Source of the DNA: an uncultured SAR116 cluster alpha proteobacterium
Lineage (GTDB): Bacteria > Pseudomonadota > Alphaproteobacteria > Puniceispirillales > Marisalimonadaceae
DNA length: 64,000 bases
Direction of reading: 5' to 3'
Assembly (NCBI GenBank): GCA_902543145.1
Contig: CACBXG010000002.1
Coordinates: forward strand, 166,001 to 230,000
The position numbers and the translations under genes were made by a program. Shown piece by piece: positions 25,437-33,718 of the stretch; position 1 is the first letter of the stretch, and every line of letters starts with the position of its first letter. The notes below the pieces were generated by a model. The model did not search any database. It worked only from the letters and a program-made list of their open reading frames with translations, and had not been told where the DNA came from.

Positions 25437-25779
25437 TATCAGCTTTTAATTCATGTGGAGCTAACGGATCAATAAATGGATTACGGTATAATTTATCATG
25501 ACTTTCTACACCTATGTCAAAAGTACAATCTGTTTTAGCTCTTGCCACACATAATATTACATAACCATCGTTAATTTGCCTATTGTTAAGTGCTACTTGA
25601 GATTTTTGATCAACTTTACCCTTAATTAATTTTGCAGCACACGTAATACATCCTCCATATTGACAACCATAAGGTAAATCAACACCAAGTGAACGTAATT
25701 CTAATAATAACGGTTTATTACCTTTAACCTCATATGTTGCATTATTACGATTTGCTATTATAATTTTTTTCATAACCAA
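25405..25779 (-). CDS. 2Fe-2S ferredoxin
   Basis: PYGCQYGGCITCAAKLIKG...GYVILCVARA. Confidence 0.9.
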   Translation of the reverse strand: MVMKKIIIANRNNATYEVKGNKPLLLELRSLGVDLPYGCQYGGCITCAAKLIKGKVDQKSQVALNNRQINDGYVILCVARAKTDCTFDIGVESHDKLYRNPFIDPLAPHELKADIATIRELKDD

Positions 25780-27125
25780 ATATCACTTGTGCAATCACCT
25801 CCAGGGTAACGGCTTTCGTGACAACGACTTGGGCCATTAGGTTCATTGCCAAAGTTTACAACAAAATCTTCATTAATTTTCATACCACCATTTTTCACAT
25901 CGCAGTTGATCATTAGCATTACGCCACCATTGGTTCTAATTTCTGGATAAAATTGATTATCCCAAGTTGAAAAAAGTGATGTAGTTACATACATACGTTT
26001 CCCATCTAAAGATAATTGGTACATCTGTGGACCTCCAGCAATTTTGACACCATTTACTATTGGAGCTTTGCCAAGAAGACCACCCATCCAAACTTGACCT
26101 GTTAAAACTGGATTGTGTGGGTCAGTAATATCATATTGTCGCATATCACCGTGAAGCCAATTATTTATGTAAAGGTATTTATCATCCATAGAAACTAAAA
26201 GAGCTGACATAACTCCTGGAATAGGAATAGGCCAATCTGGTTGAGGTTCATTATCAATATCTATTATCTTTTCCCATTCCCAGCTACCATTTTTGGTTTT
26301 CCAAAAATGTATTACGTTTGCACTTAAGGCTGCACCACAAAACCCGTGGCAACTATTTGGATTGTGTAAAAACTTTACTTCTAAAGGAATGAGTCCATCT
26401 TCTCCTAAATACATCGTTTGAATTGGCTTTTTCTTCTCAAAATCCCAAATATGTAAACGTCTTCCATATTTAAGATGGCCAACTTCTTCAAGATCAAAGC
26501 CTGGCATAAAAGTGTTTGGTGCAGCCCATTCTGAGCTAACCATTACATTGTGACGTGGTTGATACCAAAAATCATAACTAAAAGGAATATCACCCATCGA
26601 GTTTTCCCAACGCCCTAAAATTTCAAAGTCTTTGTTAAGATGTAAGTAACCTCCTGGAGCTTCACCTTTAGCGTCTCCAAGGAAAGAAATAATTATCTCT
26701 GATCCTAAGCAATGAACGGTGTGTGGTCCTGATAAATTAGTTTTAGTTTTAATTTCGGTCCCTTGGATAATTTTGTGTATTCTAGGTGCTTTTGGATTTG
26801 TTGCTGTATCAACAACATAAATATTATTTGATCTAACACCTGGAACAAGAAGATATCTTCTACTCATACTTTTATCACCATGACAAGATGAACATGCATT
26901 CCAACCCATATGATGTAGTTCATCTCCTATTCCTGGCATTTCCAGTCTATGTATTACTTTTGAATAACTTTCACTTTTTGGGTCAACATCAATTGTTGCT
27001 AAGTAATCAGGTTTTTGAATGCCAGTGCCAGTATAAATAGCTATAGTGTAAAGTAATTGTTCACTTGGTGCTCTAATGGCTTCAGAAGGACTTGCATACC
27101 CTGGACCGCAACATAATCCTTCCAT
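25770..27125 (-). CDS. Selenium-binding protein / methanethiol oxidase family
   Basis: CCGPGYASPSEAIRAPSEQLLYTIAIYTGTG; HHMGWNACSSCHGD; SCHGFCGAALSANVIHFWK. Confidence 0.92.
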   Translation of the reverse strand: MEGLCCGPGYASPSEAIRAPSEQLLYTIAIYTGTGIQKPDYLATIDVDPKSESYSKVIHRLEMPGIGDELHHMGWNACSSCHGDKSMSRRYLLVPGVRSNNIYVVDTATNPKAPRIHKIIQGTEIKTKTNLSGPHTVHCLGSEIIISFLGDAKGEAPGGYLHLNKDFEILGRWENSMGDIPFSYDFWYQPRHNVMVSSEWAAPNTFMPGFDLEEVGHLKYGRRLHIWDFEKKKPIQTMYLGEDGLIPLEVKFLHNPNSCHGFCGAALSANVIHFWKTKNGSWEWEKIIDIDNEPQPDWPIPIPGVMSALLVSMDDKYLYINNWLHGDMRQYDITDPHNPVLTGQVWMGGLLGKAPIVNGVKIAGGPQMYQLSLDGKRMYVTTSLFSTWDNQFYPEIRTNGGVMLMINCDVKNGGMKINEDFVVNFGNEPNGPSRCHESRYPGGDCTSDIWL

Positions 27126-30591: not shown

Positions 30592-30849
30592 TCAATTTTT
30601 AGATAATTGATATACTTCGTGTGATAAGCCAAGTTCTTTTTCCATTTGTTTAAATTCATCTGACGACATAAACTGTCCAACCATATCAGGGTTAAAGACT
30701 TCTGTACTAATCATTGCTGTTTCATCATCTACCTTACCAACAATCGTGTTTCTCATCATTTGAGACTGAACTTCTGCATCTGCGTCAAATTTTTTCTTCC
30801 ATTCATCGTAAGTAGTATTTTTAATCTTCACAATTATAAGAGTGTTCAT
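30592..30849 (-). CDS. Small hypothetical alpha/beta protein
   Basis: 85 aa ORF on the same strand as 30874-31155. Confidence 0.55.
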   Translation of the reverse strand: MNTLIIVKIKNTTYDEWKKKFDADAEVQSQMMRNTIVGKVDDETAMISTEVFNPDMVGQFMSSDEFKQMEKELGLSHEVYQLSKN

Positions 30850-30873
30850 GTATCAATCCTTTGATTTTATAAT

Positions 30874-31155
30874 CTAATCGGTTACGTCCATTACATTTGA
30901 CATCTCTTTTATGTCATTATGAAACATGCCCGCCATATCACCTAAAGTGTCTAAAATAGCTTGAGGAGAGTTTGCTTTCCACCAACAATACATAACCATA
31001 TCGTTCTTTTCATTATTCCAATTCATTTGAAAATTTGCATTTTCATTTTTCATATTTTTACGCACATCGTCTGGCGTCATATCTTTCATTGCTTCAAAAT
31101 ACTGATCTCTCATTTCTTCAGACTTAAATTTATGTTCTATCATGTAATCTTTCAT
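30874..31155 (-). CDS. Small hypothetical protein
   Basis: 93 aa ORF adjacent to the preceding small ORF. Confidence 0.55.
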   Translation of the reverse strand: MKDYMIEHKFKSEEMRDQYFEAMKDMTPDDVRKNMKNENANFQMNWNNEKNDMVMYCWWKANSPQAILDTLGDMAGMFHNDIKEMSNVMDVTD

Positions 31156-31321: not shown

Positions 31322-31352
31322 TTTACCTTCCTCTTAGGGAAGGGTTTAAAGA
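31322..31352 (+). promoter_or_regulatory. CueR/MerR-type promoter-operator upstream of copper module
   Basis: TTTACC (-35-like), 19-bp spacer containing dyad CCTTCC-TCTTAG-GGAAGG, TAAAGA (-10-like). Confidence 0.6.
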
Positions 31353-31368
31353 TTATTTTGGAGTTAAA

Positions 31369-31812
31369 ATGATTATTCAAGATGTCATACAGATAAACTG
31401 GTTCTGCCAACATACTTGGTTACAGTCGTCTAAAAATACTTTGTGGTGTTTGCTTGGATGTTGTATTGGAGATTTTGGTACAATTGCATATTTTCAATTC
31501 ATGCAGATTGACTGGCCCGTTATATTAATTATGTCACTGGCCATTGTTAATGGAATATTGACATCTATTGCACTTGAAACTTTTATACTGTCAAAGCAAA
31601 TGTCTATGAAATTAGCCTTTAAAACAGCAATTGGGATGTCTTTAGTTTCTATGGTCTCTATGGAATTAGCTATGAATTTAACTGATGTTGTACTAACTGG
31701 TGGTGCTATTTTAACATGGTGGGTTATTCCTTTTATGCTTATCGCAGGATTTGTAACACCCCTTCCATACAATTACTGGCGATTAAAAGCATTAGGCAAA
31801 GCATGTCATTAA
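31369..31812 (+). CDS. DUF4396 family membrane protein
   Basis: NTLWCLLGCCIGDFGTIAYFQ; membrane segments; first gene of copper module. Confidence 0.75.
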   Translation: MIIQDVIQINWFCQHTWLQSSKNTLWCLLGCCIGDFGTIAYFQFMQIDWPVILIMSLAIVNGILTSIALETFILSKQMSMKLAFKTAIGMSLVSMVSMELAMNLTDVVLTGGAILTWWVIPFMLIAGFVTPLPYNYWRLKALGKACH

Positions 31813-32303
31813 ATTTTAAAGGTTTTACTAAAAATAAATTTTTGTTTTTAATATTAATTCCTTCAATAATTTTAATGTTTGGGATGATTGTATATTTGGC
31901 TGATGAAAAAGTCGCTCAAGCAGCTATCACTTTAAATCCTGATAATAAAGAAACTATTTCACTAGGAAAATCTGTATACGTTCAAAATTGTGCATCATGC
32001 CATGGTGCAAAATTAGAAGGTCAAAATGATTGGATGTCCAGACTGCCAAATGGATTAATGCCTGCTCCACCACATGACGAAACAGGTCACACTTGGCATC
32101 ATAGTGATAAATATTTATTCATGATAACAAAATACGGTATTGAAGATATTATAGGTCAAAAATATCCTAACAATATGCCCGCTTATAAAGATATTCTCTC
32201 GGATAAAGAAATTATTTCAGTATTATCTTATATAAAAAGTACATGGCCAAACAAAGTAAAAAAAATCCATGACCAAATCAATAATCGTGAGAAATCAAAG
32301 TAA
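31803..32303 (+). CDS. Membrane-anchored c-type cytochrome
   Basis: CASCH heme motif after N-terminal TM; start MSLNFKGF overlaps preceding stop. Confidence 0.85.
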   Translation: MSLNFKGFTKNKFLFLILIPSIILMFGMIVYLADEKVAQAAITLNPDNKETISLGKSVYVQNCASCHGAKLEGQNDWMSRLPNGLMPAPPHDETGHTWHHSDKYLFMITKYGIEDIIGQKYPNNMPAYKDILSDKEIISVLSYIKSTWPNKVKKIHDQINNREKSK

Positions 32304-32320
32304 CATCAATTGAAATATTA

Positions 32321-33718
32321 ATGGAAATAAATATGCTATCTCGACGTGAATTTTTAAATTTTTCAGCAGCGACAATTGCTTTAACATCTTTACCTAATCA
32401 AATTCAATCTAACCAATTAATTCGCAATTATAAGTTAACAGCTGAGATCACTCCACATTTATTTGATAAGAAAGGTGTCTCAGATAGCTTATGGTTGTAT
32501 AACAAACAATCACCTGGGCCAGTCATTGAGGCAAAAGAAAATGATATCATAAGAGTTGAGTTTGTTAACAATTTAGATGAAGCCAGCACAATCCACTGGC
32601 ATGGTATAAAAAATATTAATAAGATGGATGGTGTTCCATATTTAACTCAAGACCCAGTTCAACCTGGAGAAACTTTTATATATGAATTTCCAGTTAATGA
32701 TGCAGGAACATTTTGGTACCATGCACATTTTGAAACTTGGAAACAAATTTCAAAAGGTTTATATGGGCCTTTGGTAGTCAAAAATAATTTAGATAAACAA
32801 TTTGATAATGATATAATTATATTAGCTGATGATTGGAGATTGAATAAAAATTATCAATTAGATAGAAAATCATTTGGCTCACTTCATGATTGGTCACATG
32901 CAGGGAGAATTGGAAATTGGCTTACTATTAATGGAAAAAAATTTCCTGAATACTCTGTAAATAAAAATGGCTATGCAAGATTAAGATTTATCAATGCCTC
33001 TAATGCAAGAATACTCTCATTTGGCTCTAGTTTAAATAGAATGAAGATCATCTCAATAGATGGGATGTCGGTTGAACCATTTATTCAAGATAAATTTGAT
33101 TTGGGGCCAGGTCAAAGAGTTGATTTGTTAATAAAAACTTATGATATGTCAACAATTGATTTCTTTGAAGTCAGTGGTAAAAAACCGTTAAATGCTTTCA
33201 AGCTAAATGTTAATCAAGGTAGTAAAAAAAATATTGTAAAAAAAGAAATAAAACTACAATCTTTAAAAAAAATACCACCCTATAAAAATGCAAAAATATT
33301 AAAAATTCACATGCAAGGCGGTGCAATGGGAAATCTTGCTAAAGCCTATTTTGAAGGTGTAGAAAAAAATTTTCGTTCATTAGCAATGGAAGATAAAAAA
33401 TTTTGGGCATTTAACAAAAAGGTAGGTAAGTATGAACATTCACTCGCATGTGTAAAAAAAGGCGAGATAATAATTTTAGATGTTTGGAATGACACAAGAT
33501 GGCCACATAGTATGCATTTGCATGGTAATCATTTCTATGTTGAATCAAAAGAATTTTCAGACAATGACAAATTAATTCTCAGAGACACATATCTCATGCA
33601 ACCAGGTGAAAAATCAAAATTTATATATTTAGCAGATAATCCTGGTAAATGGCTTTTTCATTGTCACATGTTGGAACATGCAGCTTCGGGTATGATAGGT
33701 TACATAGAAGTAGCATAA
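32321..33718 (+). CDS. Multicopper oxidase
   Basis: IHWHGI, FWYHAH, WPHSMHLHGNHFYV, WLFHCHMLEHAASGM copper-binding motifs. Confidence 0.93.
   Translation: MEINMLSRREFLNFSAATIALTSLPNQIQSNQLIRNYKLTAEITPHLFDKKGVSDSLWLYNKQSPGPVIEAKENDIIRVEFVNNLDEASTIHWHGIKNINKMDGVPYLTQDPVQPGETFIYEFPVNDAGTFWYHAHFETWKQISKGLYGPLVVKNNLDKQFDNDIIILADDWRLNKNYQLDRKSFGSLHDWSHAGRIGNWLTINGKKFPEYSVNKNGYARLRFINASNARILSFGSSLNRMKIISIDGMSVEPFIQDKFDLGPGQRVDLLIKTYDMSTIDFFEVSGKKPLNAFKLNVNQGSKKNIVKKEIKLQSLKKIPPYKNAKILKIHMQGGAMGNLAKAYFEGVEKNFRSLAMEDKKFWAFNKKVGKYEHSLACVKKGEIIILDVWNDTRWPHSMHLHGNHFYVESKEFSDNDKLILRDTYLMQPGEKSKFIYLADNPGKWLFHCHMLEHAASGMIGYIEVA

Follow-up and report, generated by a model that had tools for sequence, protein, structure and literature searches.

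The closest described counterparts of the promoter considered here are those of copA and cueO in Escherichia coli and Salmonella, which hold an ACCTTCC...GGAAGG operator inside a 19-bp spacer and belong to a regulator, CueR, with cysteines at positions 112 and 120. The HmrR/actP systems of Proteobacteria fall into the same regulator branch and use a nearly identical motif, and PMC1526738 describes 19-bp spacers as a requirement of CueR and HmrR promoters alike. The same source already records multicopper oxidases under CueR control and cytochromes predicted to be so. In Vibrio, too, the predicted CueR regulon includes a c-type cytochrome, and CueR sites precede cytochrome c genes; the accessible text of that work (Permina et al. 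2006) mentions neither DUF4396 nor a DUF4396-multicopper oxidase operon. Finally, Celeribacter, Thalassovita, and their relatives carry a multicopper oxidase (38-40% identical) adjoining a cytochrome c, with cueR about 4 kb off. In the loci that we fetched from these genera, however, DUF4396 was unmatched and cueR lies downstream rather than divergent.

Our analysis concerns a window of 64,000 nucleotides from a genome assigned to SAR116 through its relatives (1.9 Mb, 76% complete, 69 contigs), in which positions 31322-31352 are, judging from sequence comparison, very probably a CueR-controlled promoter of a small copper-handling operon. The site shares with its counterparts in E. coli and Salmonella the overlong spacer, the operator within it, and the two CueR cysteines. 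It differs in its -35 element (TTTACC), in operator arms that are 6 rather than 7 bp apart, in a leader that is very short or missing, in a first gene that encodes a DUF4396 protein, and in the CopA ATPase, which was not found in the genome. In HmrR systems the regulator gene hmrR usually comes after actP, the ATPase gene; in SAR116, cueR is either solitary or divergent from DUF4396, and a P1B ATPase was not found in the genomes searched. As far as the open literature shows, in which we found one passing mention of DUF4396, the new elements are a regulon headed by this family, a recurrent cueR divergon, and the occurrence of this regulon without CopA.

The predicted promoter and its probable regulator

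The interval reads TTTACC TTCCTCTTAGGGAAGGGTT TAAAGA on the forward strand. Its -35-like hexamer, TTTACC (31322-31327), and its -10-like hexamer, TAAAGA (31347-31352), are separated by exactly 19 bp (31328-31346), just as the sequence-only reading had placed them. The predicted CueR operator, a 21-bp frame of the form ACC-N15-GGT (31325-31345), is centered on position 31335, 7 bp from the -35 element, which is the spacing published for CueR (PMC5045206). Within this frame lies a visible perfect dyad, CCTTCC-N6-GGAAGG (31326-31343). A scan of the whole 1.9-Mb genome for CCTTCC-N4..9-GGAAGG returned one match, a single palindromic place at the operon, against 0.04 expected from a simple base-composition estimate, and the reversed control pattern returned none. 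With up to three mismatches allowed, TTTACCTTCC-N5-GGGAAGG was expected 0.05 times in the window from dinucleotide shuffles and was observed twice; one of the two matches is exactly the 31322-31352 site.

The parallel with E. coli copA, also drawn from the letters alone, holds for the architecture (spacer and 21-bp frame) and falters at the right half-site, which is one base off. The gap between half-sites is 6 and not 7 bp because the right arm reads GGGAAGGGT, and in a frame with a 7-bp gap the arms of the window match at 5 of 7 positions. The canonical outer ACC...GGT and the 19-bp spacer are retained despite this N6 dyad.

The cueR gene sits on another contig (C9) of the same genome, in agreement, as far as cueR is concerned, with the earlier remark that the window holds no MerR gene. 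Its product, a member of the MerR family, passes the TIGR02044 equivalog model for CueR (149.9 bits versus a cut-off of 147.4) and aligns with E. coli CueR without gaps, keeping C112, C120, and S77. C112 and C120 belong to the Cu(I) metal loop of CueR. The homologue that the sequence-only reading proposed to seek elsewhere in the genome is thus present, and it is an equivalog that retains this loop. At 76% completeness, the genome may have further CueR targets outside our view.

We propose that the CueR of this genome would bind as a dimer to the 21-bp operator that the overlong 19-bp spacer contains. As long as Cu(I) is absent, the -35 and -10 elements would be out of phase and transcription low; once loaded with Cu(I), CueR would distort the DNA and thereby allow sigma-70 RNA polymerase to open the promoter. 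The DUF4396, cytochrome c, and multicopper oxidase genes would then be transcribed together from about position 31359.

Conservation of the site and its linkage to cueR

Of the 58 family genomes, 18 carry the dyad, each at a single place, and 17 of these 18 places lie directly upstream of DUF4396 (G050 is the exception). The arrangement TTTAC-19 bp-TA is kept by 30 distinct SAR116 sites: all 30 share TTTAC and the spacer length in a 19-bp frame that was fixed beforehand, and all 30 have TA as the first two positions of the -10-like hexamer even though these were left free. Conservation by alignment column peaks over the SAR116 sites and drops to background on either side. This comparison was built on a pattern in which TTTAC, TA, and some of the left arm were fixed; the columns A14, G17, and A19, which it left free, are conserved at 93-100%. 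Paired changes in the two arms occur at L015 (ACCTTAC/GTAAGGT) and L033 (ACTTTCC/GGAAAGT). The N6 form of the dyad is common to the window's close relatives. In sister species the half-sites are 7 bp apart, and several of these species have perfect arms that match at 7 of 7 positions.

Linkage to the regulator is direct in many relatives. At 18 SAR116 loci, cueR is divergent from DUF4396 across this same site, and the same divergon occurs at eight DUF4396 loci fetched from other Alphaproteobacteria, for which the class sample comprised 289 genomes. Most of these eight read TTGACC-TTCC...GGAA in a 19-bp spacer. No such site was found at five DUF4396 loci without a neighboring cueR in genomes of 1.2-1.4 Mb. 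As a separate observation, DUF4396 copies adjoin cueR in five SAR116 genomes (G007, G008, G010, G019, and G022), several of which carry a second, intact DUF4396 elsewhere. The cueR-adjacent copy has stop codons or is truncated in G007, G010, and G022, while a dyad of the CueR type is still present in the divergent promoter region.

The same comparisons bear on whether the dyad instead serves as operator for some other dimeric regulator of metal response, such as a CsoR-type repressor or a different MerR protein, that has replaced CueR, at least where cueR is undetectable. A CueR gene was not detected in seven relatives that bear the dyad, of which five (G011-G014 and G041) are 60-81% complete, G036 is 75% complete, and G039 is 99% complete. 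Draft gaps may lie behind some of these cases but hardly all; the gene may have been lost, missed in assembly, or superseded by a different regulator. A purN gene of the type that neighbors cueR is likewise missing from G039 and others without cueR, so it is no guide to whether the absence of cueR is real. Yet cueR adjoins the same site in many relatives, and both the 19-bp spacer and the ACCTTCC motif match published CueR features. The sole other clear MerR-type gene of the genome (L001) was set aside as the regulator; it adjoins an IHF/HU-type gene, and its scores with the closest models, CarH and HspR, fall short of the cut-off. For these reasons, we regard control by another regulator as very unlikely.

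There is a similarly slim chance that the site is a relic of a CueR promoter, with regulation lost in the window's clade and the operon now constitutive. The right arm has shifted by one base, cueR has been relocated away from the operon, and the cueR-adjacent DUF4396 genes of G007, G010, and G022 are damaged, all of which could fit decay. Against this, the 31-bp unit is nearly unchanged throughout the window's clade amid variable flanking DNA, none of the operon has been lost, and close relatives share 93-99% identity in cueR.

The operon and the search for P-type ATPases

The three genes named by the sequence-only reading were borne out by domain matches, and all lie on the forward strand. 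The first encodes a DUF4396 membrane protein of 147 aa (31369-31812; PF14342, 122 bits). Its end is overlapped by the start of a gene for a monohaem cytochrome c with a CASCH motif and an N-terminal anchor (31803-32303; PF00034, 49 bits), which is followed by a CopA/CueO-like multicopper oxidase gene (32321-33718; PF07732, PF00394, and PF07731). The oxidase has a Tat-like SRREFL leader and four copper motifs (HWHG, HAH, HMHLHGN, and HCHMLEH). Its nearest NCBIfam models are CueO and copper_res_A, and it scores below the cut-offs of both (133.6 versus 525 bits and 177.8 versus 478.95 bits, respectively), which together with its domains and motifs places it in another subfamily of multicopper oxidases. 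Upstream of the operon are two small divergent ORFs (30592-31155, reverse strand; 93 and 85 aa), the larger of which is weakly SCO4226-like, below cut-off; the pair is retained beside DUF4396 in L025 and L026.

Sister operons tie this gene set to copper independently of the promoter, because they include copC and copD. At L056 the order is cueR, then divergently DUF4396, cytochrome c, copC, copD, and the multicopper oxidase, and at L025 and L026 a DUF4396-copC-copD operon lies downstream of a CueR-type site. Combined with the 30 conserved SAR116 sites and the cueR divergon, this linkage puts a CueR promoter well ahead of every other reading, and, with CueR encoded in the same genome, the comparisons support the CueR-like promoter first suggested from the sequence. 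Within such an operon, the multicopper oxidase may oxidize periplasmic Cu(I), the cytochrome c may carry electrons, and DUF4396 may act in the membrane by transporting or binding Cu(I).

Homologues of DUF4396 were found in 39 of the 58 family genomes, and C27, C31, M98, E99, M102, C146, and H147 are invariant across 29 sequences. The predicted structure is all-helical (pLDDT 86). Sequence search found no solved relative, and neither did a fold search, whose best E value was 0.24 and which gave weak NqrD-like matches with a TM score of about 0.43. With no solved relative, no mechanism can be read from the structure.

A P1B copper ATPase in the regulon, the mark of a CopA-based Cue system, was not found in the window's genome (76% complete), and none of the 58 family genomes gave a score above cut-off. 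One fragment resembling a P-type ATPase, in G044, was discarded; it matches over 102 positions and sits at the edge of a contig. Among 12 genomes from the order, one of them a single contig of 2.8 Mb rated 100% complete, no P-type ATPase of any kind exceeded its cut-off, while 14 of 14 control genomes were positive. SAR116 bacteria thus appear to be without the copper-pumping ATPase that is normally under CueR control. Considering G258, G160, and the SAR116 family genomes, it is apparently all P-type ATPases that are absent from the order and not the copper types alone. In the wider class, P1B ATPases above cut-off occur in 3 of 19 genomes with a SAR116-like DUF4396 versus 9 of 15 sampled without DUF4396, a difference that is only suggestive because genome size and kinship both confound it.

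Since no P1B or other P-type ATPase exceeds its cut-off in the genomes searched, DUF4396 heads a CueR regulon apparently without CopA, which makes it a candidate copper transporter. It may plausibly take part in Cu(I) transport. We put forward more tentatively, as a possibility that we would sooner doubt than assert, that DUF4396 carries Cu(I) across the membrane (or hands it over to the periplasm) in place of CopA in a CueR regulon of ATPase-free marine Alphaproteobacteria, with its invariant residues (Cys, Met, Glu, and the Cys-His at the C-terminus) as the copper path. An uncharacterized family thereby gains a testable role in copper homeostasis. Our results also suggest a route by which the abundant marine SAR116 could handle copper without any P-type ATPase, and they suggest that CueR control can outlast the absence of its usual main target. 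SAR11 has been reported to be without copA (PMC4771312), so the copper question extends past SAR116.

Predicted leader length and transcription start

Transcription typically starts 6-8 nt after the -10 element. In the window, the ATG of DUF4396 follows that element by 16 nt, which would leave a leader of about 9 nt with GGAG, a possible Shine-Dalgarno sequence (31360-31363, forward strand), at its extreme 5' end. The very short leader, noticed in the sequence-only reading as a feature in need of explanation, is a trait of the clade, although the start itself is predicted. In the sister species with the 7-bp dyad, the ATG comes 6-12 nt after the -10 element (at L022 and L023, an in-frame ATG comes after 7 nt), so that their mRNAs would be leaderless or nearly so. 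At cueR-adjacent loci, the distance from -10 to ATG is mostly 19-27 nt in SAR116 and 30-40 nt in other families. Leaderless transcripts make up 7% of mRNAs in Methylorubrum (PMC9320726) and account for 119 pairs of transcription start site and gene in Zymomonas (PMC7566282), both alphaproteobacteria.

That the inverted repeat acts as RNA, whether as a terminator, an attenuator, or a leader hairpin, is barely credible and was rejected: RNA of the dyad could form a short stem and the compensatory arm changes are also compatible with one, but fold stability is not clearly above that of shuffles (z of -1.16), a search for a terminator-like site found none, the upstream gene is divergent so that read-through RNA is not expected, and the ATG positions in sister species put the dyad upstream of any transcript from the promoter.

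Elsewhere in the window, at 25770-27125 on the reverse strand, lies a gene for an SBP56-family protein (675 bits to that family), with ferredoxin-like and CoA-binding-like ORFs as its neighbors; its score with the NCBIfam MtoX model is far under the cut-off. The SBP56 family includes methanethiol oxidase, which is a copper enzyme.
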